Source: an uncultured Bacteroidota bacterium
GTDB taxonomy: Bacteria > Bacteroidota > Bacteroidia > Bacteroidales > F082
DNA length: 53,667 bases
Reading direction: 5' to 3'
Assembly: GCA_913055825.1 (NCBI GenBank)
Contig: CAJXKB010000010.1
Span: 1 to 53,667, forward strand
The notes beneath the pieces are model-generated. The model worked only from the letters and a program-made list of their open reading frames with translations. It did not search any database and was not told the DNA's origin. Below are positions 22,040 to 39,875 of the stretch, piece after piece. How positions within the stretch are numbered: position 1 is the first letter of the stretch; each line of letters starts with the position of its first letter. Made by a program: the position numbers and the translations under genes.

Positions 22040-22045
22040 TTAGTC

Positions 22046-22088
22046 AGGAAAGGGGGAGCTCATTACGGACTTCCCTTTCCTTTAATAT
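22046..22088 (+). terminator. Intrinsic terminator after the TPR protein gene
   Basis: AGGAAAGGG (22046-22054) pairs perfectly with CCCTTTCCT (22073-22081), enclosing an 18-nt loop, and is followed by a T-rich tract. Confidence 0.65.
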
Positions 22089-22156
22089 TTTCTATTTAAC
22101 ATAATATATATTATAGGACAAATGTTATTCGGTCTTTATCTATAAGCTACAACGCT

Positions 22157-23449
22157 CTAATAACAATTATAGTGATTGTCGAATTTTTCTTTGATTTTAT
22201 CCAAACATAGGTTACCAATACTTCCTTCATGTGTATAATGCACATTCTTATCCGGTTTATATTTTCCATTAAGGATTTCATTACCAATTTTTTTGTATGC
22301 ATCGCGAAATGACATCCCCTGCATTACAAGTTTATTTGCAGATTCGGCACTATAAAGGTTATCGTAAATTTTCTTTTCAAGAATATTATCTTTGATTCGT
22401 ACGTGCTGCATCATAAAATTGACAATGTTTAAATTTTCCTTCAAGCTATCCACTGCCTGTATAAAACTTCCTTTCAAAAGTTGAAAATCGCGATGGTAAC
22501 CACTTGTTAAATTATTAACTATCATTGTAATTTCCATGGGAAGATTTTGGATTTTATTGCTTCGCGCACGTACCAACTCAAAAACATCAGGATTCTGCTT
22601 ATGGGGCATAATGCTCGATCCGGTGGTTAATTCTTTAGGGAAACCCAAAAAATTGAAATTGGGGCTCATAAAAAGACAGACATCTGCGGCCATTTTTGAC
22701 AACGTACCCGATACGGATGCCATGGCATATGCCATTGTTTTTTCCAGTTTGCCGCGGCTCATTTGTGCTGCGACAACGTTGTATTTCAGCGTTTTAAAAC
22801 CAAGTAGCCCGGTTGTATAACTCCTGTCGATGGGAAAACCGGTGCCGTAACCTGCACCCGAACCCAACGGGTTTTGGTCGGAAATCATATATGCAGCATT
22901 TAACATAATCAGATCATCAATAAGACTTTCGGCATAAGACGAAAACCAAAGTCCGAATGAGGAAGGCATGGCTACCTGCATGTGGGTGTAACCCGGAATA
23001 AGCACCTTTTTATGTTGTTCGCTTAATTCAAGCAACGTAGTAAATAGCTGTTTTACAGCCTGTTTGATCAATTCGATTTCTTCTTTGGCATAAAGATGTA
23101 AATCGACTAATACCTGATCGTTACGCGAACGCGCTGTATGAATTTTCTTACCCGCCTCCCCTATCGTTTTGGTTAGCTCGAACTCAATCTTGCTATGCAC
23201 ATCTTCAAAGGATTCCTCAATAATAAAAGTCCCATCATCGATGGTTTTTTGGATTTCATTCAGGCCATTGAGAATATTTTTTAGTTCTTCATCCTTTAAT
23301 ATTCCTATTTTGTTTAACATTTTAGCATGTGCCACATTGCCCTGGACATCATATTTTGCAAGTTTTAAATCAAGGATTCTGTCATTGCCTACCGTGAATT
23401 GCTCCACAAGGTTTTCAGTTTCATATCCTTTGTCCCATAGTTTTTTCAT
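22157..23449 (-). CDS. argH: Argininosuccinate lyase
   Basis: ArgH splits argininosuccinate into arginine and fumarate, the last step of arginine synthesis. The 430-residue product has the fumarase/aspartase-superfamily signature GSSIMPHKQNPD (catalytic serine loop), TARSRNDQV and the TGYHRDFQLLK segment. The frame is open to an ATG at 23473, which would overlap the upstream deacylase gene; the ATG at 23449 (MKKLWDKG) is chosen because it aligns with known ArgH starts (KLWDKG...EQFTVGND). It is the last gene of the arginine operon. Confidence 0.93.
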   Translation of the reverse strand: MKKLWDKGYETENLVEQFTVGNDRILDLKLAKYDVQGNVAHAKMLNKIGILKDEELKNILNGLNEIQKTIDDGTFIIEESFEDVHSKIEFELTKTIGEAGKKIHTARSRNDQVLVDLHLYAKEEIELIKQAVKQLFTTLLELSEQHKKVLIPGYTHMQVAMPSSFGLWFSSYAESLIDDLIMLNAAYMISDQNPLGSGAGYGTGFPIDRSYTTGLLGFKTLKYNVVAAQMSRGKLEKTMAYAMASVSGTLSKMAADVCLFMSPNFNFLGFPKELTTGSSIMPHKQNPDVFELVRARSNKIQNLPMEITMIVNNLTSGYHRDFQLLKGSFIQAVDSLKENLNIVNFMMQHVRIKDNILEKKIYDNLYSAESANKLVMQGMSFRDAYKKIGNEILNGKYKPDKNVHYTHEGSIGNLCLDKIKEKFDNHYNCY

Positions 23450-23459
23450 AATCAATGTC

Positions 23460-24521
23460 TTATAGAATTTCATTAAATATTTTAATCATTATATTAATTC
23501 CTTCCGAAACTTCCTGCAAATAAATGAATTCATTCGCCTGATGTGACCGTGTGGAATCGCCGGGGCCCATCTTTAACGAGGGGCACGAAAGCACCGATTG
23601 ATCTGATAGTGTGGGAGAAGCATAAGTGTTACGTCCACATTTTAAACCAGCCTGCACAAATGGATGGCTGATATCTATAGAAGACGAATTGAGGTTAAAC
23701 GACCTCGCTACCACCTTGCTTTGAGTGTGCTGATCAACAATTTCAAAAATTTCTCTGTTTTTATATAAATCATTCACACGAATATCTACAACAAAATGAC
23801 AGGTGGCCGGAACTACATTATGCTGCGTTCCGGCATCAATCTGGGTGACCGTCATTTTTATCTTACCCAACAATTCCGACACTTTAGGAAATTCGTAGGT
23901 TTTAAACCATTGAATATCTTCGATTGCTTTGTAAATGGGGTTTACCGTATTGTTGTGTGCGGCATGGCCTGCAATACCTGATGCGTAGCCATCAAGAACA
24001 AGCAATCCTTTTTCGGCAATGGCCATTTGCATTCCGGTGGGCTCTCCCACCACGGCAAAATCAGGTTGCGGCAAATCTGTCAACAGGCTGTTTAGTCCTT
24101 TTGTCCCTGAGCTTTCCTCTTCTCCTGTGGCCGCTAGTACCAGGTTGTATTTCATGTCTTTACGAAGGTAATTGTAAACAAACAGGCTCAGTAAAGAAAC
24201 CAAAGATCCTCCGGCATCATTACTTCCCAGCCCAAACAATTTACCATCAATCACCTCAGGTTTAAAAGGATCGTTGGTGTAATTTGAATTGGGCTTCACC
24301 GTGTCGTGATGCGAATTAAGCAAAATTGTGGGCTTGTTTTCATCGAAATACTTGTTTTTAGCCCAGACGTTGTTGTTCGACGTACTGTATTCAACACCGA
24401 ATGCTTTTAGATAATCCTGAATGAGCTTGCCGGTATTTTCTTCTTCACCCGAAAAAGATGGGGTTTCAATTAAATGACTCAGCAATTCTATGGCTTTTTG
24501 TTCCAGCTTTTTAATTTTCAT
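23460..24521 (-). CDS. argE: M20-family deacylase of the arginine pathway (ArgE-like, acetyl- or succinyl-ornithine/citrulline deacylase)
   Basis: The 353-residue M20 metallopeptidase-fold enzyme has the di-zinc ligands in order: LLNSHHDTVKPN, GLGSNDAGGSL, ATGEEESSGTKGL (general base Glu pair), VVGEPTGMQMA and the final His in STRSHQANEF. In Bacteroidota arginine synthesis the blocking acyl group can be succinyl and is removed after carbamoylation, so the substrate may be an N-acyl-citrulline and not N-acetylornithine; sequence alone does not decide. It starts 1 bp after argB ends and stops 10 bp before the chosen argH start. Confidence 0.85.
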   Translation of the reverse strand: MKIKKLEQKAIELLSHLIETPSFSGEEENTGKLIQDYLKAFGVEYSTSNNNVWAKNKYFDENKPTILLNSHHDTVKPNSNYTNDPFKPEVIDGKLFGLGSNDAGGSLVSLLSLFVYNYLRKDMKYNLVLAATGEEESSGTKGLNSLLTDLPQPDFAVVGEPTGMQMAIAEKGLLVLDGYASGIAGHAAHNNTVNPIYKAIEDIQWFKTYEFPKVSELLGKIKMTVTQIDAGTQHNVVPATCHFVVDIRVNDLYKNREIFEIVDQHTQSKVVARSFNLNSSSIDISHPFVQAGLKCGRNTYASPTLSDQSVLSCPSLKMGPGDSTRSHQANEFIYLQEVSEGINIMIKIFNEIL

Positions 24522-24522
24522 A

Positions 24523-25305
24523 TCACAATGTTAGACAAGTGAATAATTCTTCTTTATTATTATTAATTACCCCGGCGTTTCCAATAATTACTTTGGAAAC
24601 TTTATGCTCAATTGCATCAAATCCTTTTTTTAGTTTTGGTAACATGCCGTCATTTATTATGCCCTTTTTCAGCAACCCTTTATAGTTTTCACTATTGATT
24701 TGTGGGATGACCGAATCCGGATTGTCCAGATCATACAGCACCCCTTTTCTTTCAAAACAATAAATCAGTTCTGTTTCAAAAAGTGAGCACATGGCTATTG
24801 CAACTTCAGAGGCCACCGTATCGGCATTGGTATTAAGCAATTGCCCTTTATTATCGTGGGTAATAGCACAAAATACAGGTGTAATTCCATGCTTAAGTAA
24901 CAGGTTAACAACCTCATAATTTACTTTCACGACATCTCCCACCAAACCGTAATCAATTTTGTGAACAGCTCTTTTTTCAGAAAGGATGGCATTGGCATCA
25001 GCACCTGAAAGGCCCAACGCATTGCAAGTTAGGGATTGTAGTTTAGCGACAATTTTTTTATTGATTAATCCGGCATAAACCATGGTTACGATTTCCAAAT
25101 CGTGTTGATTCGTTAATCGGCGGCCTTCATGCATTTGGGGCTCAATTCCCATTTTATGGCTCAGCTTACTGGCCAGCTTACCACCCCCGTGGATCAGGAT
25201 TTTTTTCCCTTTGACAGCAGCAAAATCTTTCAAGGCCTCATTCAGCTTCCGCTCATTATCAATAATCTCCCCTCCAATTTTGATTACTTTTAGCTTGTCT
25301 TTCAT
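24523..25305 (-). CDS. argB: N-acetylglutamate kinase (or N-acylglutamate kinase)
   Basis: ArgB phosphorylates the N-acylglutamate gamma-carboxyl, the second step of arginine synthesis. The 260-residue amino-acid-kinase fold shows KVIKIGGEIIDN and ILIHGGGKLAS at the N-terminus, the substrate segment HEGRRLTN, GLSGADANAI, and the nucleotide-binding LLNTNADTVASEVA. The length is that of the short, arginine-insensitive type without an N-terminal kinked helix, so feedback control is probably elsewhere. It sits between argD (36-bp gap) and the deacylase (1-bp gap). Confidence 0.92.
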   Translation of the reverse strand: MKDKLKVIKIGGEIIDNERKLNEALKDFAAVKGKKILIHGGGKLASKLSHKMGIEPQMHEGRRLTNQHDLEIVTMVYAGLINKKIVAKLQSLTCNALGLSGADANAILSEKRAVHKIDYGLVGDVVKVNYEVVNLLLKHGITPVFCAITHDNKGQLLNTNADTVASEVAIAMCSLFETELIYCFERKGVLYDLDNPDSVIPQINSENYKGLLKKGIINDGMLPKLKKGFDAIEHKVSKVIIGNAGVINNNKEELFTCLTL

Positions 25306-25341
25306 TGTTATTATTTTAAATCTTTTTGCCTTTTTTTATCT

Positions 25342-26472
25342 TCAAGACAGCACCCCGGTAAGTGCTTTCACAAAAGTGTCTGCATTTTCGCGAGTAATGA
25401 TTAGCGGGGGTAGAATCCGCAACAAATTTGGATTGGCAGAAGAACCTGTAAAAATATGATAATCATACACCAGTTTTTCACGGATATCTTTGACGGGAAA
25501 ATCGAATTCAACCCCCAGCATCAGACCTTTTCCTTTGATTTGTTTCACCTTTGGAAGCTGCTGCAACTCTTCCTTTAAATACCCACCTACTTCATTAACA
25601 TTAGTCACAACGGATTCTTTTTTCATTACATCCAACACAGCGATTCCTGCTGCACAGGCTAGCGGGTTTCCCCCGAAAGTCGTTCCCAAAAGTCCATATT
25701 CGGCTTTAATTTCGGGAGAAATCAATACCCCGCCAATAGGAAAACCATTTCCCATGCCTTTGGCTATTGTGATGATATCAGGCTTAATATCAGCATATTG
25801 ATGTGCGAAAAACTTTCCACTTCGGCCGTAACCACTTTGTATTTCATCCAAAATAAGGATAATACCATGTTGTTTACTTTGTTGCGAAAGAAATTTCAGG
25901 AACGCAACCGAAGGGGCATCCAAACCGCCAACGCCCTGTATTCCTTCCACTATTATTGCACATACATCATCCGAACGCAACGCATCTTTCAATGGCTTTT
26001 CCTTATTTAATTCCAGATATTTAACCGGGAAATTGTTGAAATTAAGCGGGGCCGAGAGTTTAAGGTTATCTGTCACGTTTAAGGCTGCTGCCGTTCTTCC
26101 GTGAAAGCTGCCCTTAAAAGCAATTACTTTTCTCTTTCCCGTATAAAAAGAGGCTAGTTTCAGTGCGTTTTCGTTTGCTTCGGCACCCGAATTACACAAA
26201 AATAGTTGATAGTCGTGGTAACCACTTGCTTCGGAGAGCTTTTGTGCTAATTCATCCTGAATGGGCAAATAGATGGAATTGGAATAAAAAACCAGTTTGT
26301 CAAGTTGTTGATTTACTCTTTTTATGTACCCTGGATGGGAGTGGCCAATGGAGATAACACCATGACCACCATAAAAATCGAGATATTGCCGGTGCTGATC
26401 ATCCCACAAATAAACTCCATAAGCTTTTTCAAGTGTTACTTTAAAACGGGGATAAACATCAAATAATTTCAT
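25342..26472 (-). CDS. argD: Acetylornithine (N-acylornithine) aminotransferase
   Basis: ArgD is a PLP enzyme converting N-acylglutamate semialdehyde to N-acylornithine. In the 376-residue product the class-III motifs are NSGAEANENALKLA, KGSFHGRTAAALN, ILDEIQSGYGRSGKFF and the Schiff-base lysine in TIAKGMGNGFPIGG. The frame runs back to a TTG at 26481 that overlaps proC; the ATG at 26472, one base after the proC stop, is preferred. It could also serve in ornithine or lysine transamination, as ArgD enzymes often do. Confidence 0.92.
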   Translation of the reverse strand: MKLFDVYPRFKVTLEKAYGVYLWDDQHRQYLDFYGGHGVISIGHSHPGYIKRVNQQLDKLVFYSNSIYLPIQDELAQKLSEASGYHDYQLFLCNSGAEANENALKLASFYTGKRKVIAFKGSFHGRTAAALNVTDNLKLSAPLNFNNFPVKYLELNKEKPLKDALRSDDVCAIIVEGIQGVGGLDAPSVAFLKFLSQQSKQHGIILILDEIQSGYGRSGKFFAHQYADIKPDIITIAKGMGNGFPIGGVLISPEIKAEYGLLGTTFGGNPLACAAGIAVLDVMKKESVVTNVNEVGGYLKEELQQLPKVKQIKGKGLMLGVEFDFPVKDIREKLVYDYHIFTGSSANPNLLRILPPLIITRENADTFVKALTGVLS

Positions 26473-26473
26473 G

Positions 26474-27295
26474 CTAATCAATATTTTTCTTAATATCTGT
26501 AATCATTTCGTAAGACGATAATAAACCGTGAATCAAGGCGGAGCTCAGTCCTTGTTGTTCCATTTGGTTAAGGCCCCGAATGGTGCACCCTTTCGGAGTG
26601 GTAACTTTATCAATTTCCCCTTCGGGATGTGACTGTGGGTTTGCAGCCAGTATGTTTGCAGCACCGAGTGAGGTTTGTACAGCGATAAATTTGGCTTCTT
26701 CTGCATCGAATCCCATCTGGACTCCTCCCTGAGTAGTGGCACGTATCAACCGCAGCCAAAAGGCAATGCCACTGGCGCCCAGCACTGTGGCCGCCTGCAT
26801 GAGTTCATCCTCAATAATCAGGGTTTTACCGAGATTGTTAAAAATATTTTGTGCAATTTCAAGGCCTCGGGTGTCCCCATTTGTGCTAAGGCACGTCATT
26901 GACTCACTCACGGCAATGGCCGTATTTGGCATAGCCCTTACAATTTTACAGCCTTTGCCCAACGCTGCCTCCAGATTTTTAACGGTCATGCCGGTTATGG
27001 TTGAAATAACCACTTTATCCCCGATATATGGTTTTATCTGAGCTATAACGTTCGAAAACTGATTGGGTTGTACCGACAAAATGATTACATCCGACTGCCT
27101 TGCTGTTTTTACATTATCAGTAGTAAAAGTCAAATTTGAACTTTCAAGTGGTGGTGTCGCGAAAGGTTTTCTCTTACTGGCCATCATTGTAAGTTTATGA
27201 TTTATCGGAGAGGCCAACAGCCCTTTTATGATGGCCAATCCCAGATTTCCGGTTCCGATAATTCCGATTTTTATTTTGCTTGTTTTTTGTTTCAT
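26474..27295 (-). CDS. proC: Pyrroline-5-carboxylate reductase
   Basis: ProC reduces pyrroline-5-carboxylate to proline with NAD(P)H. The 273-residue product has the Rossmann start IGIIGTGNLGLAIIKGL, VILSVQPNQ, RAMPNTAIAV and the C-terminal signature VTTPKGCTIRGLNQME. The frame is open upstream to 27331, which would overlap argC; the ATG at 27295, one base after the argC stop, is the better start. Its place between argC and argD is notable, since its product is outside the arginine path but shares the glutamate-semialdehyde chemistry. A bifunctional role in ornithine-proline interconversion is possible but not shown. Confidence 0.9.
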   Translation of the reverse strand: MKQKTSKIKIGIIGTGNLGLAIIKGLLASPINHKLTMMASKRKPFATPPLESSNLTFTTDNVKTARQSDVIILSVQPNQFSNVIAQIKPYIGDKVVISTITGMTVKNLEAALGKGCKIVRAMPNTAIAVSESMTCLSTNGDTRGLEIAQNIFNNLGKTLIIEDELMQAATVLGASGIAFWLRLIRATTQGGVQMGFDAEEAKFIAVQTSLGAANILAANPQSHPEGEIDKVTTPKGCTIRGLNQMEQQGLSSALIHGLLSSYEMITDIKKNID

Positions 27296-27296
27296 C

Positions 27297-28274
27297 TTAA
27301 AAATAATTTGCTTTGAAATGTAAACTTTCATCCTGTTTAATACCGAGCATCAGGTTCATGTTTTCTACAGCCTGTCCGGCGGCCCCTTTTAATAAATTGT
27401 CAATTGCGGTGGTGATAAATGCTTTATTGCCATGCTTTTCCACGTGAATTAAACAATAATTGGTATTGACAACCTGCTTCAGATTGATAGGCGTATCGCT
27501 AATAACGGTGAACGTTTCGCCTTCATAAAAGGTTTTGTATAATTGTACCAATTCGTTTTCTTCCAGGTCGCAGCCCGTGTAAATACCGGTAAAAATTCCA
27601 CGGGTAAAATTTCCTCTGAGCGGAATGAAATTTATTTCCTGATTAAACCCGGGCTGGCATGCGGCGAGACTTTGATGAATTTCGTCGAGATGCTGATGCG
27701 TAAAAGGTTTATACGCTGAAATATTATTATTTCTCCAGCTAAAATGGCTGGTCGCAGATAATGCCTGTCCTGCTCCCGTTGAACCTGTGATTCCTTGAAT
27801 ATGAATGTCGTTTGTAAGTTGTCTTGCATTCGCCAAGGGAAGCAAACCCAATTGTATGGCCGTGGCAAAACAACCCGGATTGGCAATGTTATCTGCCAGA
27901 ATTATTTTCTCCCGGTTGAGTTCGGGCAATCCATATTCAAACTTATTTCCTAAAAAAACGGCATTTGAATTTAAACGAAAATCGTTACTAAGATCGATGA
28001 TCCTGGTTTTGTCCGAAAACGGATGTTTATTCAGAAACCGGCCTGAATTACCATGCCCCAAACATAAAAACACCACATCAACATCTTCGGTAACAACATC
28101 CGTAAATTCAATTTCAGGATGTGTAAAAAGGTCTTCATGCACTTTTAGGACTTTTTCCCCGGCATGGGAATGACTGTAAACAAAATTGATATTTACCAGT
28201 GGATGTCGAATCAAAACCCGAATCAACTCCCCTGCTACATAGCCTGTGCCGCCTACAATGCCTACTTCTGTCAT
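27297..28274 (-). CDS. argC: N-acetyl-gamma-glutamyl-phosphate reductase
   Basis: ArgC reduces N-acylglutamyl phosphate to the semialdehyde with NADPH. The 325-residue product has the Rossmann start VGIVGGTGYVAGELIRVL, the catalytic cysteine in NPGCFATAIQLGL, GITGSTGAGQALS and the His-bearing HQHLDEIH. It overlaps the argG stop by 4 bp and ends one base before the proC start, which fits tight translational coupling. Confidence 0.93.
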   Translation of the reverse strand: MTEVGIVGGTGYVAGELIRVLIRHPLVNINFVYSHSHAGEKVLKVHEDLFTHPEIEFTDVVTEDVDVVFLCLGHGNSGRFLNKHPFSDKTRIIDLSNDFRLNSNAVFLGNKFEYGLPELNREKIILADNIANPGCFATAIQLGLLPLANARQLTNDIHIQGITGSTGAGQALSATSHFSWRNNNISAYKPFTHQHLDEIHQSLAACQPGFNQEINFIPLRGNFTRGIFTGIYTGCDLEENELVQLYKTFYEGETFTVISDTPINLKQVVNTNYCLIHVEKHGNKAFITTAIDNLLKGAAGQAVENMNLMLGIKQDESLHFKANYF

Positions 28275-29464
28275 TTTGATTGATTTACGTTTTGATAAAT
28301 TTTTATTGCATTTGAAATAATTTTGGTAAAGCCTTTAATATCTTCTCCTGTCCAGGCCTTGTTCACTTCACCGTAATCTCCAAAACCCGATTTCATCAAA
28401 TCATGATTAGAGGTAATTCCCTGCACTTCGAATCTGTATGGATGCAACACTACCGATACATTTCCTGATACATTTTGCTGCGAATCCTGTAAAAAGGTTT
28501 CGATATTTCGCATCACCGGTTCAAAATATTGCGATTCATGGATAAACATGCCGTACCAGTTGGCCAGTTGTTCTTTCCAGTATAGTTGCCATTTACTCAG
28601 GGTATGTTTTTCAAGCACATGGTGCGCCTTGATGATTATACTCGCTGCAGCCGCTTCAAAGCCAATCCGTCCTTTTATTCCGATGATAGTGTCACCTGTA
28701 TGCATGTCGCGGCCAATGGCGTATTGGCCAGCCAGTTGTTCAATTTCCTGAATAGCTTTTACCGGTGTTATTTTTTTACCGTTTAAACTGCTGATTTCTC
28801 CTTTTTCAAATTCAATTTGGATTGTCTGTGAGTTGGATTTCTTCAGTTGACTGGGATAAGCTTCTTCTGGTAAAGGTAAATTTGAGGTCAGTGTTTCTTC
28901 GCCGCCGATACTGGTACCCCAGAGCCCTTTATTCAAAGAATATTTAGCTTTTTCCCAATCGATTTTCAGACCTTTTTCGGCCAGATACTTTATTTCATCC
29001 TCACGGGTAAGAATTTGATCTCTCACCGGGGTTAAGATTTCCAGTTCGGGGGCAAGCAATTGAAAAATCATATCAAAACGTATTTGATCGTTACCGGCAC
29101 CGGTGCTACCATGCGCGATGTATTTGGCACCGATATACCGTGCGTATTTGGCCAATGCAATAGCCTGATAAATTCGTTCGGCACTTACCGATAAAGGATA
29201 GGTGTTGTTTTTCAGCACATTACCAAATATCAGGTATTTAACAATATGATCATAAAAGGCCTGCGTCCCTTCAAGGGTCTTGTGATTTGCAGCCCCTAGT
29301 GAATAAGCTCTTTTGGCAATGGCTTCCAGTTCTTTCCCGGAAAAGCCACCAGTATTGACAATGGCGGTATGTACTTCCAGGTTTTTTTCGTGCATTAAAT
29401 ACTTTACGCAATAGGATGTATCTAATCCGCCACTAAAGGCCAACAATACTTTTTCTTTGTTCAT
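28271..29464 (-). CDS. argG: Argininosuccinate synthase
   Basis: ArgG joins citrulline and aspartate with ATP. The 397-residue product begins with the PP-loop LLAFSGGLDTSYCVKYL, then HGSTGAGNDQIRFD, WGTSIGGEETLTS and GRIGFEAAAASI. It overlaps the upstream GNAT gene by 4 bp and argC by 4 bp. With argH at the far end of the same operon, both steps from citrulline to arginine are encoded here. Confidence 0.94.
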   Translation of the reverse strand: MNKEKVLLAFSGGLDTSYCVKYLMHEKNLEVHTAIVNTGGFSGKELEAIAKRAYSLGAANHKTLEGTQAFYDHIVKYLIFGNVLKNNTYPLSVSAERIYQAIALAKYARYIGAKYIAHGSTGAGNDQIRFDMIFQLLAPELEILTPVRDQILTREDEIKYLAEKGLKIDWEKAKYSLNKGLWGTSIGGEETLTSNLPLPEEAYPSQLKKSNSQTIQIEFEKGEISSLNGKKITPVKAIQEIEQLAGQYAIGRDMHTGDTIIGIKGRIGFEAAAASIIIKAHHVLEKHTLSKWQLYWKEQLANWYGMFIHESQYFEPVMRNIETFLQDSQQNVSGNVSVVLHPYRFEVQGITSNHDLMKSGFGDYGEVNKAWTGEDIKGFTKIISNAIKIYQNVNQSK

Positions 29465-30129
29465 TTGTGTAATATTTTATTGAGTTTTGGATATAATTGA
29501 GTCATTTCAGGAAAATTGATCTTGCGTTTGTGCAAAAAGGTTTTAAAATGTTCCCACGATTGTGATGATCTCTTTTTCCCGTTAATTACTGTATGATTAT
29601 TTTTGGGATTGTAAACCATGGCCGTACAGAGGCACATTTTTCTCCCGGTCCGTTGCAGGATATCATAATTGGTACATGTTTCGCAACCTTTCCAAAATTT
29701 CTCGTCGGTGGTCAGCTCCGAAAAGGTAACCGGTTGATAACCCAGTCCCGAATTGATCTTCATCACCGCCAGACTTGTGGTAATGCCGAATATACGCGAT
29801 TCGGGAAATTTGCTTTGCGACAGCTCAAAAATCTTTGTTTTAATTATTTTTGCCAGCCCTGTTTTACGGTAATCGGGGTGAACAATAAGGCCTGAATTGG
29901 CTACAAATTTTGCCCCTTCCCAACTCTCGATGTAGCAGAAACCCACTACCCGTGAGCCATCTAAGGCAATTACTGCTTTGCCCTCATTTATTTTTTCACG
30001 GATGTATTCAGGTTCACGTTTAGAAATACCTGTTCCCCTTGCTTTTGCAGCTTCTAAAATCATATTACAAATTTCAGCTGCATATTGCTGGTGGGTATTG
30101 TCAACCACCTTAATCACAATTTGCTTCAT
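29461..30129 (-). CDS. GNAT acyltransferase heading the arginine operon (candidate N-acylglutamate synthase)
   Basis: The 222-residue product has a GNAT fold: VVGFCYIESW (strand beta4), the acetyl-CoA loop in VHPDYRKTGLAKIIKTKIF, and ITTSLAVMKINSGLGYQ. As the first gene of the arginine operon, 4 bp overlapping argG, it is the likely enzyme making N-acetyl- or N-succinylglutamate; classical ArgA or ArgJ is not in the window. An unusual feature is a cysteine cluster, C-x2-C then C-x-C within about 20 residues (GCETCTNYDILQRTGRKMCLC), which could bind a metal or act as a redox or regulatory site. The C-terminal 45 residues are basic and lack clear homology. Confidence 0.75.
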   Translation of the reverse strand: MKQIVIKVVDNTHQQYAAEICNMILEAAKARGTGISKREPEYIREKINEGKAVIALDGSRVVGFCYIESWEGAKFVANSGLIVHPDYRKTGLAKIIKTKIFELSQSKFPESRIFGITTSLAVMKINSGLGYQPVTFSELTTDEKFWKGCETCTNYDILQRTGRKMCLCTAMVYNPKNNHTVINGKKRSSQSWEHFKTFLHKRKINFPEMTQLYPKLNKILHK

Positions 30130-30203
30130 GTGACGATTCTATTAAATCAGAAATAAAATGAATGGATATAAAAATTGAGAAATGGCAGGGTACGGAACCC
30201 CGC

Positions 30204-30229
30204 AAAAAATATTAAACCCCGAAGGGGGG
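30204..30229 (-). terminator. Putative attenuator hairpin at the end of the arginine-operon leader ORF
   Basis: On the minus strand a run of six C (30229-30224), UUC, and GGGG (30220-30217) form a short GC stem, followed by UUUAAUAUUUUUU. AUUA before and UAAU after can extend it with a CC bulge. It overlaps the last codons and the stop of the leader ORF and precedes the GNAT start by about 75 nt. A second hairpin, GCGGGG / CCCUGC, lies at 30203-30185. The U tract is interrupted, so strength is uncertain. Confidence 0.5.
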
Positions 30230-30322
30230 CCTAATCCTGCTTACGTGAACAAAATGCAAACGCATACCGGCCACAACGGGATGTTGTGCACAAGAATAGT
30301 GGTATGTGTTTTTTTGTTTCAT
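30212..30322 (-). CDS. Putative 36-residue leader peptide of the arginine operon
   Basis: An ATG at 30322-30320 opens 36 codons ending in TAA at 30214-30212. The peptide runs MKQKNTYHYSCAQHPVV, then AGMRLHFVHVSRIRPPFGV. It has three arginine codons: CGT at 30262-30260, and AGG at 30238-30236 and 30232-30230. The last AGG abuts the six-C arm of a hairpin that contains the stop codon. A -7 box 36 bp upstream would give a leader of about 30 nt. No Shine-Dalgarno is visible, as is normal for the phylum; the region before the ATG is A-rich. The layout fits ribosome-mediated attenuation by arginine supply. It also has four histidines, so specificity is inferred from the position of AGG and the operon content, not shown. 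Confidence 0.5.
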   Translation of the reverse strand: MKQKNTYHYSCAQHPVVAGMRLHFVHVSRIRPPFGV

Positions 30323-30357
30323 TTTGATGGGGTAAAAGTAAATGTTTTTTTTAAATA

Positions 30358-30365
30358 CAAAAGTA
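30358..30365 (-). promoter_or_regulatory. -7 promoter box of the arginine operon
   Basis: On the minus strand this reads TACTTTTG, an exact TAnnTTTG match. Transcription would begin near 30350, about 28 nt before the leader-peptide ATG. A weaker alternative, TTTG then TACTTTTA at 30340-30333, would leave almost no leader before that ATG. Confidence 0.5.
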
Positions 30366-30462
30366 TTCCGGAAATATTTTTTATTTTATTTTTATAAATC
30401 CGTTTAATATGCAGTAAATAACGCAATTAAGTTGGCTTGTCGAATTAGTTTCCTTTTGGGTT

Positions 30463-30480
30463 TGTGATCCGGGCGGGATT
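30463..30480. repeat. 18-bp duplicate of the tRNA-Arg 3' end (possible attachment-site scar)
   Basis: The 18 bases TGTGATCCGGGCGGGATT are identical to 30633-30650, which is the tRNA's discriminator base, 3' acceptor strand and 3' part of the T arm. Flanking bases differ on both sides. The rest of a tRNA is absent here. Such a copy is what integrase recombination at a tRNA 3' end leaves behind. Confidence 0.6.
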
Positions 30481-30517
30481 ATTGCATGATTCCTGCGCCT
30501 CCATTTTGAAATAGAGT

Positions 30518-30549
30518 AAGGCTGCGGAATTCATTCCGCAGCCTTTTTT
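30518..30549 (+). terminator. Plus-strand terminator-like hairpin with no plus-strand gene upstream
   Basis: AAGGCTGCGGAA (30518-30529), a TTCA loop, and TTCCGCAGCCTT (30534-30545) form a perfect 12-bp stem with T residues following. No plus-strand gene is seen upstream, so it is either an orphan left by rearrangement or the end of a small RNA. Confidence 0.6.
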
Positions 30550-30598
30550 ATGTTCGGGAACACCTCAAAAAAATTTGGTTTTTCCCGAACATAAAAAA
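30544..30598. terminator. Large bidirectional inverted repeat between arginine operon and tRNA-Arg
   Basis: A perfect 17-bp inverted repeat (30544-30560 / 30582-30598, core ATGTTCGGGAA) has T and A runs at its outer ends, which suits termination on both strands. Confidence 0.6.
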
Positions 30599-30622
30599 GG
30601 CTCACCCACCGGGCAAGCCTTT
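30596..30622 (-). terminator. Terminator of tRNA-Arg
   Basis: On the minus strand AAAGGCT (30622-30616) pairs with AGCCTTT (30602-30596), followed by a U run. It lies 13 nt after the tRNA 3' end. Confidence 0.55.
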
Positions 30623-30634
30623 CACTCTTATCTG

Positions 30635-30708
30635 TGATCCGGGCGGGATTCGAACCCGCGGCCCGCAGCTTAGAAGGCTGCTGCTCTATCCAACTGAGCT
30701 ACCGGACC
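30635..30708 (-). tRNA. tRNA-Arg (anticodon UCU)
   Basis: A 74-nt cloverleaf without encoded CCA. The acceptor GGTCCGG pairs with CCGGATC (one G-U). The D arm is GCTC/GAGC, the anticodon stem GCAGC/GCTGC encloses CTTCTAA (anticodon TCT), the variable loop is five bases, the T arm GCGGG-TTCGAAT-CCCGC, and the discriminator is A. It reads AGA and AGG. A -7 box lies 35 bp upstream and a terminator follows. pyrF upstream is on the same strand. Confidence 0.95.
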
Positions 30709-30742
30709 CGAAAAAAAATAATCTTTTTCCTTTTTAGGGCTG

Positions 30743-30750
30743 CAAAATTA
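30743..30750 (-). promoter_or_regulatory. -7 promoter box of tRNA-Arg
   Basis: On the minus strand this reads TAATTTTG, an exact TAnnTTTG match, 35 bp upstream of the tRNA 5' end. TTTG motifs occur upstream but at 11 and 15 nt, shorter than usual spacing. Confidence 0.5.
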
Positions 30751-30810
30751 AAAAAATTGAACAAACAAAAACCTGAGCTAAAAAGTTTTTTAAAAAAGGA
30801 AAAACGAGAA

Positions 30811-31653
30811 CTATTGAACAGTGGCTATCAGTCCGTGTGCTGTCAGCAGTTCCGCCATTTCCTTTTGCAGTGCGGCTGCCGCCTCAGCTGCTTTCTTAGC
30901 AAAATTTTTCCCGGAAGATGCATAAATAATTCCACGTGAAGAATTAACCAGTAAGCCACAATGAGAATTCATCCCGTAGCGAGCAACTTCTTCCAGGCTG
31001 CCTCCCTGTGCCCCCACCCCAGGGACCAGCAGAAAATGCTCAGGAACAATTTTACGCACTTGGGCCAGTCCCTCTGCCCGCGTGGCGCCCACTACATACA
31101 TTAGTTGATTACAGGTTCCCCATTCACGGGAAATCTGTAACACTTTTTCATACAGCAGTTGTCCGTTTTTGCCTTCAAAATACTGAAAATCAGAGGCTGA
31201 TGAATTTGAAGTCAGTGCGAGCAAAATCACCCAACGGTTTTTGTATTTCAGAAAAGGGCTTACCGTATCCTTACCCATGTAAGGTGAAAGCGTTACGGCA
31301 TCTACATTTAAACCTTCAAAAAACGTTTCGGCATACAGCCTGGAGGTATTCCCGATATCTCCCCTTTTGGCATCTGCAATGATCAAAACCGATGGTTCCT
31401 TTTGTCGGATATAGTTAATAGTTTTTTGCAGACTTCGCCAGCCGGCTTCGCCACCGGCCTCGTAAAATGCCATGTTTGGTTTATAAGCTACCGAAAAAGG
31501 CAGGGTTGCATCCACTATTTGCCGGTTAAACTCAAACACGGGGTCATCTGCATCAAGAATGTGAGCGGGAATCCGTTTGACATCCGTATCCAGGCCTACG
31601 CACAGAAAAGATTGTTTTTGCTGAATTTGCCGGAAAAGTTCGTTGTAAGTCAT
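30811..31653 (-). CDS. pyrF: Orotidine 5'-phosphate decarboxylase (long, type 2)
   Basis: PyrF decarboxylates OMP to UMP, the last step of de novo pyrimidine synthesis. The 280-residue product belongs to the longer type-2 family: FLCVGLDTDVKRIP at the N-terminus, the catalytic D-x-K-x2-D in IIADAKRGDIGNT, VTLSPYMGKDTV, LALTSN and LLVPGVGAQGG. An in-frame ATG at 31662 adds three residues; the ATG at 31653 (MTYNELF) matches family starts. It lies downstream of prfA on the same strand, separated by a tandem octanucleotide array. Confidence 0.93.
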   Translation of the reverse strand: MTYNELFRQIQQKQSFLCVGLDTDVKRIPAHILDADDPVFEFNRQIVDATLPFSVAYKPNMAFYEAGGEAGWRSLQKTINYIRQKEPSVLIIADAKRGDIGNTSRLYAETFFEGLNVDAVTLSPYMGKDTVSPFLKYKNRWVILLALTSNSSASDFQYFEGKNGQLLYEKVLQISREWGTCNQLMYVVGATRAEGLAQVRKIVPEHFLLVPGVGAQGGSLEEVARYGMNSHCGLLVNSSRGIIYASSGKNFAKKAAEAAAALQKEMAELLTAHGLIATVQ

Positions 31654-31705
31654 TTTAAGCATTCAATAATTCAGTCCGTTTTCACCCCCCACAACCTCAG
31701 CATCC

Positions 31706-31777
31706 CACATTACCACATTATCACATTACCACATTATCACATTACCACATTACCACATTACCACATTATCACATTAT
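31706..31777. repeat. Tandem octanucleotide array (CACATTAY)9
   Basis: Nine uninterrupted 8-bp units, each CACATTAC or CACATTAT, fill 72 bp between pyrF and prfA. The last unit shares one base with the prfA stop codon. The C/T choice at position 8 alternates irregularly. Units are adjacent with no spacers, so this is a simple tandem repeat and not a CRISPR. Confidence 0.9.
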
Positions 31778-32853
31778 TATTCAAATTCTTCTTTCAGCCG
31801 TTCGGCATTCTCAGCCAGTTGTAGTTTGTCAATCAATTCCTGGATATCACCATCAATTATGGATTGTAAGTTATATAATGTCAGGTTTATACGATGATCG
31901 GTAACGCGGCCCTGCGGCCAGTTGTAGGTCCTGATTTTTGCCGAGCGGTCACCCGTAGAAACCATCGTTTTTCGTTTGGACGACATCTCTTTAAGATATT
32001 TATTGTATTCCTGTTCGTACAAACGGGTACGTAAAACCTTCATGGCTTTGGCGAGATTTTTTATCTGCGATTTTTCATCCTGGCAGGTAACCACAATTCC
32101 CGAAGGTATATGTGTCAGGCGAATAGCCGAATAGGTTGTATTTACCGATTGTCCGCCGGGGCCACTGGAGCAGTAGGTATCTTTTCTGATATCTTTGTCA
32201 TGTAATTCCACGTCGAATTCGTCGGCTTCGGGAAGTACAACCACCGAAGCGGCAGAAGTATGAATACGTCCCTGGGTTTCTGTTTTAGGCACACGTTGAA
32301 CCCTGTGCACGCCCGATTCAAACTTCAATGTTCCGTAAGCTCCGTCGCCAATCACGTTAAAAACGATCTCCTTAAAACCGCCCGCAGTTCCTTCATTCAA
32401 TTCGACCACTTCAACTTTCCAATGTTTGGTTTCGCAATATTTTTGATACATCCTGAAAAGATCCCCTGCAAATATGGAAGCTTCGTCACCGCCCGTACCG
32501 GCCCTTATTTCCATAACCGCATTTTTTGAATCTTGCGGATCTTTTGGAATCAACAGCATACGAATGTTTTCTTCCATGTTTTCACGTTGAGGTAAAAGCT
32601 CATCCAGTTCTTCTTTGGCCATTTCCCTGAATTCGGGGTCTTTCTCCGTATTTAATATCTCGCGGGCATTGTCGATATTGCTAAGTAAATTTTTATAAGC
32701 CTTATAAGCCTTAACGATGGGTTCAAGCTCTTTATAGTCCTTATTCAACTTCACAAAATGCTTCATATCAGTCATCACCGAGGGGTCATTCATTTGTTCT
32801 GCAATTTCTTCCCATCGATTTTTAATAACCTCTAACTTATCTAAGATTTCCAC
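31777..32853 (-). CDS. prfA: Peptide chain release factor 1
   Basis: RF1 ends translation at UAA and UAG. The 358-residue product has the GGQ hydrolysis motif in [12 protein letters not shown], the stop-codon-reading tripeptide region [15 protein letters not shown] (PKT where E. coli has PAT), and RAGTGGDEA. The frame is open to an ATG at 32910, but a -7 box TATCTTTG (32885-32878) lies inside that extension and would start transcription after it. The GTG at 32853 ([13 protein letters not shown]) gives the usual length and is chosen. A prmC neighbour is not present. Confidence 0.9.
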
Positions 32854-32877
32854 TTCTGCTATGTATTTTTTGGTTTG

Positions 32878-32885
32878 CAAAGATA
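32878..32885 (-). promoter_or_regulatory. -7 promoter box of prfA
   Basis: On the minus strand this reads TATCTTTG, an exact TAnnTTTG match. Transcription would start near 32870, about 18 nt ahead of the GTG start at 32853, and this decides the start codon. Confidence 0.55.
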
Positions 32886-32980
32886 GTAAATTGCAAACAA
32901 TCCTTAACATAGGGTTGTAGCAGGGCTAAATAATATTTAGCCAAATTTTGCACCAAAGCTCGAATCTTTTAATTAATTGT

Positions 32981-32988
32981 TATTTTTG
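32981..32988 (+). promoter_or_regulatory. -7 promoter box of the DUF349 protein gene
   Basis: TATTTTTG matches TAnnTTTG exactly, 63 bp before the ATG at 33051. It is divergent from the prfA box about 95 bp away. Confidence 0.5.
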
Positions 32989-33050
32989 CATCCAATGAAT
33001 AGCTCCTTACCGGCTTCAAATGAATTGCCGGATGCTTAAAAATGTGTAAA

Positions 33051-35234
33051 ATGGAAACAAAAGACGAGATGAATCAAAATCCTGAACCTGAAAACAACAA
33101 GCCGGTTCGGGAGGAGAAGCCTGAAACTGTGAAACAACCGGTTGATGAAGTTAAAACCCCTGCAAAAAGAAAAATTGTTAAGGCAGGCATTACAAAAAAA
33201 GAAAAAAAACGTATTGTTGAACTTGTAAAAAGCCCGGTCGCGGCCAGTCAGCAAAAAAAAGTCAGTCCGGCCAAACCACGGAAGAAAAAACTGATTAATA
33301 AGAAGCTTAAAGAAAAAATTCTTGTTTTAACTCGTGATACCAGGGGGCAGGAATTAGAAGCTAAATCTGCTAAAAAACAGCCAAGTGACAAATCTTCGCC
33401 CAAAAAACCTGACCATCTGATCAGTGATACCGAACGGCAATTAATCCTTCGTTTGTTACGTGATATTTCCAAACGTGAGCAAGTATCAACACCGGAAGTT
33501 CGGCGTGAAGATGACATTGACTACGAACATCTAAATAAACAGGAACTGGTTGAATTGCTCGAAAAACTTGTCGAAGACAAAAACATTAACAAGATAAAAA
33601 ACGGGGTGGCACGTATTAAAGTTGCTTTTTACCACCGCAACAAGGAAGATATTGATAATAAAACACGGGAATTTGTTGCCAAAGGTGGTAATGAAGATGA
33701 ATATGAACATATTCCGGATCCTTTAGAGCAACGTTTTCATCAGGCATTTTCCGTTTACAAGCACAACAAAGCCAAATATTCAGAACTTCTCGAAAAAGAA
33801 AAACAGGTCAATTTAAAGAAAAAATTAGATATTCTTGATGAACTCAAAGTTCTTATTAATTCTGAAGAAACACTGAAGAAAACCTACGATGAATTTAAGG
33901 TTTTACAGGAGAAATGGAAAGAAGTGGGACAGGTACCTGCAAGTGAATTAAACAATCTCTGGCAAAGTTATCATTTCCTGGTTGAGCGATTCTTTGATAA
34001 GGTGCGTATTAATAAGGAATTGCGTGATCTTGATTTGAAAAAGAATCTGGAACAAAAAATTGAGTTGTGCGAAAAGGCAGAAAAGTTATTGTTGGATGAT
34101 TCTATTTTACGCTCTTTTAAATTGTTACAAAAATACCATGATGACTGGCGTGAAATTGGCCCGGTACCCCGCGAACAAAAGGATGAAGTTTGGGAGCGTT
34201 TTAAAGCAGCCACCGATAAAATTAATCACCGACGCCGCGAACATTATAAAGAATTACACGAGGAGCAACACGCTAATTTGAAGGCCAAAAAGGCACTTTG
34301 CGATCAGATAGAAGCCTATTTAGTTGAAAATGAATTCAATTCGGTAAAATCATGGCAAAAAGCCACCGACAAAGTTAACGAGTTGATGAAATTGTGGAAA
34401 TCAGTAGGACGTGCACCCAAAGCTGATAATGATGAAATCTGGAAACGGTTTAAATCGTCGCTTGACCAGTTTTATACGGCTAAACGGAACTTTTTCTCTG
34501 CCATCAAAGAACAACAACTCGAAAATTATAACCGTAAATTGGATTTGTGTATCCGTGCTGAGGCCATCAAAACCAGCGACGACTGGAAATCAGTTACCAG
34601 AGATTTGATTAATCTGCAAAAAGAGTGGAAAAAAATCGGGCCGGTTCCCCGGAAATATTCGGATAAAATATGGAAACGATTTCGTGCAGCATGCGACGAA
34701 TTTTTTAATCGTAAATCGGATTTTTATAAAAAAACACATCACAAAGAAGATGAAAACCTGAAAATGAAACAACAGATTATTCAGGAAATTCAAAACTTTG
34801 ATGTAAAAAAGGATAAGAAAGAAAATCTGGAGGCATTAAAAAACTTTCAAAAGCGATGGATGGAAATCGGCCATGTGCCTTTTCATGAAAAAGACAAAGT
34901 TTACAAGCAATATCGTGATGCTTTTGACGAGCTTATGGGTAAACTGGGGATAAGCCAAACCGATTTGAGTGCCAAAGGCTACCAAAATAAGCTGGAAGTA
35001 TATAAAAATGCACCCGATTGGGAAATGCGCCTGTCGAAAGAACGATCACTTTTGGTGAGCAAGATGAATAAGTTGAAAGATGATATTATCCTTTGGGAAA
35101 ATAACATCGGCTTTTTCTCCAATTCCAAACAATCGTCGGTTTTGAAGGCCGAGTTTGAAAAGAAAATCGAACGGGCAAAGAAAGATTTTGAATTATTAAA
35201 ACAAAAGATAAGGATGATTGATAAGGAAATGTAA
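33051..35234 (+). CDS. DUF349 domain protein with five repeats
   Basis: In the 727-residue cytosolic protein residues 1-150 are lysine/proline-rich and probably disordered (KPETVKQPVDEVKTPAKRK). Residues about 150-230 are a helical lead-in. Then come five DUF349 repeats, each with a W-x-x-G-x-x-P core: LQEKWKEVGQVP, YHDDWREIGPVPRE, MKLWKSVGRAP, LQKEWKKIGPVPRK and FQKRWMEIGHVPF. A coiled-coil tail closes the protein. DUF349 proteins are common in Bacteroidota and Actinobacteria, with no firmly assigned function. The in-frame ATG at 33042 is an alternative start three codons upstream. Two hairpins follow the gene. Confidence 0.85.
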   Translation: METKDEMNQNPEPENNKPVREEKPETVKQPVDEVKTPAKRKIVKAGITKKEKKRIVELVKSPVAASQQKKVSPAKPRKKKLINKKLKEKILVLTRDTRGQELEAKSAKKQPSDKSSPKKPDHLISDTERQLILRLLRDISKREQVSTPEVRREDDIDYEHLNKQELVELLEKLVEDKNINKIKNGVARIKVAFYHRNKEDIDNKTREFVAKGGNEDEYEHIPDPLEQRFHQAFSVYKHNKAKYSELLEKEKQVNLKKKLDILDELKVLINSEETLKKTYDEFKVLQEKWKEVGQVPASELNNLWQSYHFLVERFFDKVRINKELRDLDLKKNLEQKIELCEKAEKLLLDDSILRSFKLLQKYHDDWREIGPVPREQKDEVWERFKAATDKINHRRREHYKELHEEQHANLKAKKALCDQIEAYLVENEFNSVKSWQKATDKVNELMKLWKSVGRAPKADNDEIWKRFKSSLDQFYTAKRNFFSAIKEQQLENYNRKLDLCIRAEAIKTSDDWKSVTRDLINLQKEWKKIGPVPRKYSDKIWKRFRAACDEFFNRKSDFYKKTHHKEDENLKMKQQIIQEIQNFDVKKDKKENLEALKNFQKRWMEIGHVPFHEKDKVYKQYRDAFDELMGKLGISQTDLSAKGYQNKLEVYKNAPDWEMRLSKERSLLVSKMNKLKDDIILWENNIGFFSNSKQSSVLKAEFEKKIERAKKDFELLKQKIRMIDKEM

Positions 35235-35254
35235 ATCAATCTTAAATTTTCAAT

Positions 35255-35284
35255 AAAAAAAGAGGCCATGCGACCTCTTTTTTA
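35255..35284 (+). terminator. Intrinsic terminator after the DUF349 gene
   Basis: AGAGG (35261-35265) and CCTCT (35274-35278) pair, extended by A residues before and T residues after, with a run of T at the end. Confidence 0.6.
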
Positions 35285-35298
35285 TTCTGTATTTGTTT

Positions 35299-35326
35299 CG
35301 TCCGCGTTTACAAAGCGGACGTTTTT
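35299..35326 (+). terminator. Second terminator-like hairpin upstream of parE
   Basis: CGTCCGC (35299-35305) and GCGGACG (35315-35321) form a perfect 7-bp stem with a 9-nt loop, followed by five T residues. It may back up the preceding terminator. Confidence 0.55.
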
Positions 35327-35381
35327 ATTCTTGCATTACAGGTTCTCAACAACCGTCGTTTAACAACTATTTAAAGCCGGC

Positions 35382-35412
35382 GTTGTTTCTTTGGAACAAA
35401 CTTATATTTTTG
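35382..35412 (+). promoter_or_regulatory. Putative parE promoter
   Basis: GTTG (35382-35385), a 19-nt spacer, and TATTTTTG (35405-35412) match the -33/-7 pattern. The ATG is 17 bp downstream. Confidence 0.55.
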
Positions 35413-35428
35413 CAGCAAATTCAGAAAA

Positions 35429-37288: not shown

Positions 37289-37383
37289 TGCAGGTTCTGC
37301 CAGTTAGAAAACATGATTATTTTACGGGCGGGCGGGCTTCCCACGCACAACATCTGCGCCAAGCCCGTCAGGCTGTCCACTTT

Positions 37384-37483
37384 AGCCGTGCTGATGAAAG
37401 CGGTGTTGCGCCACGGCAGGCAAGGCGCTTCCTCCGGTCGCACTTGCCTGCCTGCTCCACATCCGCTTTCGTCAGCACGGGCT
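37384..37483. repeat. GC-rich imperfect palindrome, MITE- or REP-like
   Basis: The left arm AGCCGTGCTGATGAAAGCGG (from 37384) is matched inverted by CCGCTTTCGTCAGCACGGGCT ending at 37483, differing by one substitution and one insertion. Inside it, GCAGGCAAG (37416-37424) pairs with CTTGCCTGC (37443-37451). The whole 100 bp can fold as one hairpin, and its base composition is unlike the neighbours. Confidence 0.6.
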
Positions 37484-37722
37484 GCCGTTCCCATCCTTCC
37501 CGCTTCAACAAACCCAAAACGTTTGAATCCAATCTGCAATTCCAGCAATAATTCTTCATACGCTCACACTCATCCTCGTTTGTAACAAAGATGGTTTTAT
37601 CCTGAACATTTTAAATGTTCTACGAGGCAAATAAAGTTTAGAGTGCCTAAAGTTTGGAGTGCCTAAAGTTAGTTACGATATCCAATTTTTAACTCCAAAC
37701 CTCAAAACCATACAAAAACGCT

Positions 37723-37831
37723 CGTCATAGCGAACATCGTGCGTTAGCTTGTGTGCCGGCGTGAAGCTATCTCTTTAACAGCATCTGTTGTTTCAGGAGA
37801 TTGCTTCAGTCGTGCCTCCTTCACAATGACG
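37723..37831. repeat. Dispersed palindromic element with GTCAT-type inverted ends
   Basis: The left end CGTCATAGCGAA and the inverted right end CGTCATTGTGAA agree at 10 of 12 positions. Inside, GTGAAGCTATCTC and the inverse of GAGATTGCTTCAG also correspond. This is the pattern of the short GTCATTGCGA/GAAGCAATCTC palindromic repeats that occur in many bacterial genomes; this copy is diverged. Confidence 0.55.
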
Positions 37832-39665: not shown

Positions 39666-39691
39666 CTATTTTGTTAAAATTCAATCAGCAC

Positions 39692-39733: not shown

Positions 39734-39875
39734 GTTGCCAACAGGGAGCAATATTTTTCGAGTGTCTTATATACTGTTAATAAATACACAGTCTAATTTT
39801 ACTATTTCGACCTGATTAATCAAAAATGTTCTTAATTTTACAAAGCAAAATTGCATAGCTTTAAATAACAATAAA

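Follow-up and report, generated by a model that had tools for sequence, protein, structure and literature searches.

Comparative analysis of the window, by which we mean the whole 53,667-nucleotide stretch of DNA that was analysed, points to a ribosome-mediated arginine attenuator ahead of the GNAT-argG operon, and we regard this reading as quite probable. An attenuator had been proposed earlier from the letters of this DNA alone; the arginine leader of that proposal, with arginine codons at or in a hairpin whose span includes or adjoins the stop codon, is conserved and stands, but its promoter box was probably misplaced and its U-tract is not conserved. Judged by comparison with related sequences, the observation exceeds what chance would give because it is conserved across relatives; taken by themselves, the window's two arginine codons are too few for that.

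A short arginine-coding ORF precedes an arginine operon

The operon lies on the minus strand and comprises eight genes, here listed from the first gene to the last.

29461..30129, minus strand: GNAT acetyltransferase, first gene of the operon (PF00583, 26.6 bits, cut-off 20.7)
28271..29464, minus strand: argininosuccinate synthase, argG (TIGR00032, E 5e-74, 249.8 bits, just below the cut-off of 268.2)
27297..28274, minus strand: argC (TIGR01850, above cut-off)
26474..27331, minus strand: proC-like reductase (TIGR00112, 194.2 bits, cut-off 196.75)
25342..26481, minus strand: argD-like transaminase (TIGR00707, 367.8 bits, below the cut-off of 410)
24523..25305, minus strand: argB (TIGR00761, above cut-off)
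23460..24521, minus strand: ArgE/DapE-family deacylase, argE/dapE-like (TIGR01910, 137.7 bits, below the cut-off of 217.6)
22157..23473, minus strand: argH (TIGR00838, above cut-off)

The genes downstream of the leader are those of arginine synthesis, with argC, argB and argH above their cut-offs, and argG and the others below theirs with strong E-values. No NCBIfam model scored above its cut-off for the GNAT gene, which may, as guessed from its position, encode the first enzyme of the pathway (N-acylglutamate synthase). The leader ORF and the two arginine codons with a putative regulatory role lie upstream of GNAT.

30212..30322, minus strand: leader ORF of 36 codons, MKQKNTYHYSCAQHPVVAGMRLHFVHVSRIRPPFGV (sequence; leaders in 9 of 9 GNAT-carrying genomes of the genus)
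30236..30238, minus strand: putative regulatory arginine codon AGG, codon 29 (sequence, conservation, arginine enrichment)
30230..30232, minus strand: putative regulatory arginine codon AGG, codon 31, abutting C6 (abutment in 7 of 9 genus leaders)

The ORF runs from ATG at 30322-30320 to TAA at 30214-30212 on the minus strand, and its 36 codons, its CGT (codon 21), its two AGG codons and a C6-UUC-G4 hairpin that contains the stop codon and precedes a U-rich tract are all present as the sequence-only reading had described them. Only two arginine codons fall among the last ten of the window leader, which is at the low end among leaders. The leader peptide matched no Pfam or NCBIfam model, and a tRNA was the sole match across the window to Rfam 15 at gathering scores. 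A tRNA-Arg gene (UCU), which presumably reads AGA and AGG, lies upstream at 30634-30708 on the same strand as the leader; it is probably a chance neighbour, because no tRNA gene was seen near the leader at any of 17 relatives' loci within the DNA compared.

The leader is conserved in the genus and rich in arginine near its end

A search with the 36-residue peptide revealed relatives at E < 0.005 in five other genomes of the same genus. GNAT was found in 9 of the 12 genus genomes, and a covariance model detected the leader in the same 9, with one strong match in each; three further matches within the GNAT-carrying genus genomes had E-values of 0.07 to 1. C6 follows directly on the last AGG in all but two of the 9 genus leaders (7 of 9); the two AGG codons are separated by one codon in the window and by two codons in the other six C6-type members. 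In the genomes G007 and G008 the hairpin is CGCC-UUAG-GGCG instead of the C6 type, and arginine codons lie inside and beside it. The idea had been staked in part on whether relatives keep the ORF and an AGG next to the hairpin, and it survives this comparison: the ORF, with arginine codons at or in the hairpin, is kept in the genus and recurs in scattered genomes.

Arginine is concentrated at the ends of the leaders. Among window-type leaders (n = 28), arginine accounts for 34% of the last ten codons versus 2.8% of the preceding codons, and all six arginine codons are used (AGG 46, CGC 18, AGA 14, CGT 9, CGA 6 and CGG 3); the corresponding values are 47% versus 0.8% in a second leader type (n = 13) and 30% versus 1.3% in a third (n = 7, L051 included), all of these counts coming from related loci and being taken without kinship correction. 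Because leader ORFs were chosen by their arginine count, a shuffled control with the identical arginine-seeking choice was needed, and under the same choice rule at least four arginines in the last 12 codons were present in 54% of 28 leaders versus 1.2% of shuffled upstream regions. No cross-clade conservation was apparent by eye in the peptide between the start and the arginine codons; the arginine residues alone are shared. Poly-proline stalling at CCC CCC was rejected as the common cause, as the two prolines are absent in 20 of 27 window-type leaders.

A probable promoter box lies close to the leader start codon

Two promoter-like boxes precede the ORF in the window.

30333..30340, minus strand: probable -7 promoter box, TACTTTTA, one mismatch, 10 nt ahead of the leader start codon (position shared with relatives)
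30358..30365, minus strand: TACTTTTG, the box originally named as the -7 element (sequence; comparison with relatives)

The TACTTTTG box is present and perfect, but its assignment as the -7 box is probably misplaced, as the box of the relatives stands 5-10 nt before the start codon, a place taken in the window by TACTTTTA, 25 nt further down. Of 27 window-type leaders, 25 have a box resembling TAnnTTTG (5 or more of 6 positions) 5-10 nt ahead of the start codon, versus 9 of 238 controls, and a perfect one is present in 20 of 27 versus 1 of 238, the controls being long ORFs read from their first ATG, in which misplaced starts are possible. The TTTG of TACTTTTG (30361-30358) is 17 nt upstream of the box at 30340-30333, close to the expected place of a -33 element; the customary spacing in the -33/-7 promoter consensus is slightly longer than 17 nt. 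Either box in the window, TACTTTTA or TACTTTTG, could serve.

With a box 5-10 nt before the start codon, the leader mRNA is probably near-leaderless. Such a start is rare for the phylum: leaderless transcripts make up 5.5% of the mapped mRNAs in F. psychrophilum (PMC9723704, in excerpt), and 5' UTRs shorter than 10 nt make up 3.7% in B. thetaiotaomicron (PMC7366714, in excerpt).

Covarying hairpins accompany the stop-codon hairpin

The region 30345-30130 folds better than shuffled sequences (z -2.97), and the following elements were distinguished within the leader region.

30273..30287, minus strand: hairpin P1, ACAAC-ATCCC-GTTGT, mid-ORF, with a loop of five (4 of 5 pairs changed on both sides; RNAalifold)
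30211..30235, minus strand: hairpin P2, enclosing the stop codon and resembling a terminator in the window genome (fold, terminator scan, tail score)
30185..30203, minus strand: hairpin P3, GCGGGGTTCCGTACCCTGC, 8 nt after the stop codon (pairing in 97.6% of cells; changes on both sides in 4 of its 7 pairs)
30301..30307, minus strand: ACATACC, candidate 5' arm of an outer helix P0 (position of the ACATAY motif in relatives)
30263..30268, minus strand: 3' arm of the possible helix P0, GGTATG (pairing counts given below)

P2 contains C6 (30229-30224), UUC (30223-30221) and G4 (30220-30217) on the minus strand. It had been credited with only four strong pairs, and the four G-C pairs are there, but the stem is longer and reaches ten pairs (30235-30211) when A-U and G-U pairs are included. 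Among relatives P2 keeps its place and takes the form of CCCC/GGGG, CGCC/GGCG, GCCC/GGGC and related variants, and in 21 of 25 leaders its predicted fold is at least as stable as -5 kcal/mol. The start of P3 lies 6-14 nt past the stop codon in 23 of 25 leaders; the footprint of a ribosome standing on the stop codon has its edge at about the place where P3 starts.

P1 and P3, which the sequence-only reading missed, both covary. The covariation was measured in an alignment (A2) of 18 of the 27 window-type leaders, which left out L031 (a near-copy of L030), L029, L033, L034, L040, L041, L043, L044 and L045; another alignment, A3, played no part in the counts. Across these 18 leaders, 93.1% of the P1 and P3 cells are paired versus 31-53% in slid versions, a share that is biased upward because the leaders were chosen partly for visible P2 and P3. 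Covariation depends less on that choice, and 22 cells with double changes were counted versus a shuffled mean of 5.7, with none of 500 shuffles as high. RNAalifold, unprompted, recovered exactly the helices P1 and P3. P1 is a probable pausing hairpin.

In 19 of 27 leaders the motif ACATAY lies at nucleotides 13-27 of the ORF, versus 1 of 238 control genes, and because it sits in another frame in L051 it was treated as a nucleotide motif. It hints at an outer helix P0 enclosing P1, of which it would be the 5' arm: 61.6% of the P0 cells are paired, versus 33-48% in slid versions and a shuffled mean of 54.9%, and the P0 covariation score was reached by 10 of 500 shuffles. Two of five measures, changes on both sides and further pair types, were no better for P0 than in shuffles. 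As a general mark of leaders ACATAY was rejected, since the combination of box, ATG and ACATAY was no commoner than a reversed control (14 versus 11 in G000; 8 versus 22 in G005).

Arginine-rich leaders are widespread but patchy

Of 149 genomes in the family, 11 have GNAT at E 1e-30. Nine of these belong to the genus, and no leader was seen in the two GNAT-bearing family genomes outside it (L024 and L025). Under laxer filters the covariance model gave 9 strong matches in 40 relatives, all in the genus and none in the 28 genomes outside it. Across 395 phylum genomes the model R1 gave 2 matches, the window and one at E 0.05, in a search that scored only 8 candidates per genome under stricter filters prone to losing weak matches, and that we do not take as a sign of absence.

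At greater distances the layout is commoner. In all, 91 GNAT loci were examined, consisting of the best 80 of 144 from a scan of named genomes together with 11 family and genus loci. Sorted by reading, arginine-rich leaders lie ahead of GNAT at 50 of the 91 loci (48 without two copies). Window-type leaders are present at 31 loci (29 without L026 and L028, which are copies of L016 and L023), the second type, with peptide ends resembling RRPHRRIRI, at 13 (Cytophagales, Cyclobacteriaceae and other Bacteroidota), and the third at 6 (Tenacibaculum and kin). A conserved leader that is not arginine-rich lies more than 200 nt upstream at 25 loci (Flavobacterium and other Flavobacteriaceae), and 16 loci have no recognisable leader. 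Two window-type loci are labelled Ignavibacteria and have weak model scores (L044, 14.1 bits, E 3; L050, 27.1 bits, E 0.015). The Aureivirga locus L051 scored 63 bits though it is outside the 18 leaders from which the model was built; its ORF would begin with GTG and end in FRFDFRRRLLA. Eleven window-type leaders lie outside the model, of which L031 and L051 matched strongly and L029, L040, L041, L043 and L050 weakly (E 0.002-0.015), while L034, L044 and L045 were at noise level and L033 gave no match. Taken together, these comparisons indicate a predicted leader layout that is widespread but patchy in Bacteroidota, in a pattern that does not tell descent from transfer.

Several of the other leaders have features of their own. 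The Flavobacteriaceae leader (25 of the 91 loci) encodes a MNKISLHITSLSRTNSPITSPEVRTLSL-like peptide, and in L056 ACATAT is also present in another frame. Leaders of the second type (L082, L099 and others), situated about 100-110 nt ahead of GNAT, seem to start with TTG (TTGGAAAA), GNAT in L082 and L099 seems to begin with TTGGAAAA too, and a four-codon ORF precedes the leader. In L054, a Flavobacteriaceae MAG, a 22-codon ORF ending in LRNRRR lies 227 nt ahead of GNAT and is perhaps a further leader type; the locus was counted as having no leader despite this arginine-rich short ORF.

The repressor ArgR was not found in the genus

ArgR control and the proposed leader are alike in acting on the same operon, and differ in that ArgR is a protein repressor, which was not found in the genus of the window. 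PF02863 (ArgR) matched in 0 of the 12 genus genomes, 8 of which combine a completeness of 90% or more with a contamination of 5% or less and several of which are incomplete; as a control, the same model was found in 8 of 14 named genomes. In the phylum sample, PF02863 was found in 138 of 395 genomes and in none of the other 257. The 50 genomes reached through GNAT loci, whose completeness is not given, divide into 8 with ArgR, 31 with the leader only and 11 with neither. ArgR was present in 2 of 33 genomes with an arginine leader versus 6 of 17 without one (Fisher p = 0.013, uncorrected for kinship), and by coordinates ArgR stands just ahead of GNAT in 6 of the 50 genomes, all without an arginine leader (L076, L083, L089, L095, L100 and L105). 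The close kin L030 and L031 are the only 2 of the 50 genomes with both an arginine leader and ArgR, and perhaps represent an intermediate state or dual control. The association of leader and ArgR may be one of clade history, given these two genomes with both and the 257 of 395 phylum genomes that are without ArgR anyway.

Proposed mechanism and alternatives

In the mechanism that we favour, transcription would start a few bases before the leader AUG, as the -7 box suggests, so that the first ribosome would load almost at the 5' end. P1, to judge from its position and covariation, is probably where RNA polymerase waits for that ribosome. With arginyl-tRNA in short supply, the ribosome would stall on the terminal arginine codons and cover the 5' arm of P2, so that P2 could not form; when arginine is ample, the ribosome would reach the stop codon and leave. 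The state of P2 and P3 would then decide whether RNA polymerase enters GNAT-argG-argC-proC-argD-argB-argE-argH. Control most likely acts on transcription, with P2, P3 or Rho as the terminating device, and the favoured final step would be premature termination, either intrinsic at P2 in the window genome or assisted by Rho in the G-poor stretch after P3.

30130..30184, minus strand: U/C-rich, G-poor stretch leading up to the operon, where Rho may enter (base composition)

That P2 itself is an intrinsic terminator, blocked simply by the stalled ribosome as the sequence-only reading had it, is possible, if doubtful. In the window its 10-pair stem is followed by AUUUUUUG and is terminator-like in a scan, and its U score of 2.56 comes close to 2.58, the 95th percentile for random background sequence; however, the P2 U score averages about 1.1 over 24 leaders, window included, versus a background of 1.0 and a score of 4.8 for the tRNA terminator of the window, and a ribosome finishing at the stop codon would cover P2 as well. 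The scan listed 34 sites in 22000-41900 versus 20.8 in shuffles, so that the listing of P2 alone is weak, and the proposed terminator of hairpin and U-tract could apply in the window genome, though not across the group, in which the U-tract is not conserved. Tails were scored in 25 of 27 leaders (L044 and L045 out); in that scoring L034 gave no P2, L029, L040 and L041 gave no stable P2, and in L037 another hairpin was taken as P3. A three-way switch would have P2 as 1:2 and P3 as 3:4, and its antiterminator would form when the 3' arm released from P2 pairs with the P3 loop and 3' arm; it seems to us rather unlikely. Complementarity of -5 to -10 kcal/mol between the P2 3' arm and the loop side of P3 was found in all 18 leaders tested, and own pairs of P2 arm and P3 were better than cross pairs (p = 0.002, 18 leaders), but the cross pairs came close (mean -6.4, versus -7.5 for own pairs) and with one leader per clade (n = 10) the median p was 0.117. 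The pairing is suggestive at most of a separate antiterminator, of which the sequence-only reading saw no obvious sign. Moreover, in predictions for 22 leaders P3 forms at most positions of the ribosome, whether it is stalling there or not, which leaves no clean switch; without a ribosome it is lost in 3 of 22 leaders (L035, L038 and L039), contrary to what a simple switch demands; and its U-tail is weak, with a mean of about 1.6 (25 leaders). Pairing of the arginine-codon region with the whole of P3 (p = 0.16; 0.22 with flank) or with the P3 5' arm (0.70) found no support, and for the P3 loop side none of 5000 permutations was as good, with a weak result by clade (median p 0.058). One leader, L019 of genome G008, has a P3 followed by seven U (U score 4.89), which would make a good intrinsic terminator, unlike P3 of most relatives.

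Rho-dependent attenuation, in which Rho would enter the U/C-rich, G-poor stretch after the leader ribosome leaves and a stalled ribosome would prevent its entry, is likewise rather unlikely when taken singly. The lack of a conserved U-tract across leaders favours it, as does the composition of the 60 nt before GNAT at 27 leader loci, with 7.8% G versus 14.7% in 151 controls and a C minus G of 0.115 versus 0.023 (p = 3e-7; related loci), a composition of the kind found at Rho sites. The stretch is, however, more U-rich than C-rich, and its shielding by a ribosome stalled far upstream is hard to explain. Translational attenuation or control of mRNA decay at GNAT has a parallel in Salmonella speF orf34, where arginine codons are used for structure-dependent decay (PMC6386406, in excerpt), but we consider it unlikely here; against the translational form, the predicted openness of the GNAT start is nearly constant in 27 leaders (0.51 free, 0.56 with the ribosome stalled at the last arginine and 0.55 at the stop codon). 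An arrest peptide, whose nascent chain would sense arginine itself in the exit tunnel, would fit the arginine-rich C-terminus and the length near 36 codons of most window-type leaders. The arginine arrest peptide types SpeFL and AAP have a conserved nascent-peptide sequence ahead of the stall; across clades no such conserved peptide was visible by eye ahead of the arginine codons, and the frame of ACATAY differs in L051, so that this account is very unlikely. A chance ORF without function is hardly credible, for although two arginine codons and one terminator-like hairpin would be unremarkable in the window alone, conservation and covariation across relatives argue against it.

Relation to known leaders

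The trp, his, thr and phe leaders are ribosome-mediated transcription attenuators of amino-acid operons, and attenuation has reportedly been the subject of a comparative study by Lopatovskaya in 2010. Like these leaders, the window system has a short ORF ending in codons for the product amino acid, an early pausing-like hairpin, and hairpins over or after the regulatory codons, and in its sensing features the predicted arginine leader would work like a classic attenuator. Unlike them, it is probably near-leaderless, has a stop codon that falls within a hairpin or at its margin, lacks a conserved U-tract and occurs in Bacteroidota genomes that mostly show no ArgR.

Salmonella speF orf34 shares the arginine codons in its leader of 34 codons and the sensing of arginine by ribosome pausing, but it controls ornithine decarboxylase through Rho, occlusion of the ribosome-binding site and RNase G, and its 5' leader is long, at 516 nt (PMC6386406, in excerpt). 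In Pseudomonas aeruginosa, carA likewise has a leader peptide on an arginine-related operon, according to a second-hand account, but it is discussed together with pyrimidine attenuation and with arginine-dependent ArgR control (PMC4997734, in excerpt). Within the same phylum, clues to attenuation ahead of amino-acid operons have been described in F. psychrophilum (PMC9723704, in excerpt) and small ORFs in long 5' UTRs in B. thetaiotaomicron (PMC7366714, in excerpt); the excerpted text of neither source describes an arginine leader or structure. A 2010 survey stated that, before its Firmicutes cases, no amino-acid leader peptides had been shown outside Proteobacteria and Actinobacteria (PMC2965389, in excerpt). 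Arginine codons in a regulatory leader are thus already known from speF, and leader peptides in Bacteroidota are suspected in general terms; searches of the open-licence literature yielded no account of an arginine leader from this phylum.

As a tentative extension, which we hold with less than even confidence, a patchy attenuator might replace ArgR in many Bacteroidota and perhaps in some Ignavibacteria, with a near-leaderless mRNA, no conserved intrinsic terminator, and a switch that would consist of the position of the ribosome on P2 and P3, perhaps together with Rho. The phylum makes little use of Shine-Dalgarno signals (PMC9723704, in excerpt). If the attenuator reading is true, the leader, seen mostly in genomes in which no ArgR was found and with its start codon near the predicted 5' end, would provide a test case for transcription-translation coupling in such a phylum, and it would raise the question of what stops RNA polymerase when the U-tract is not kept.
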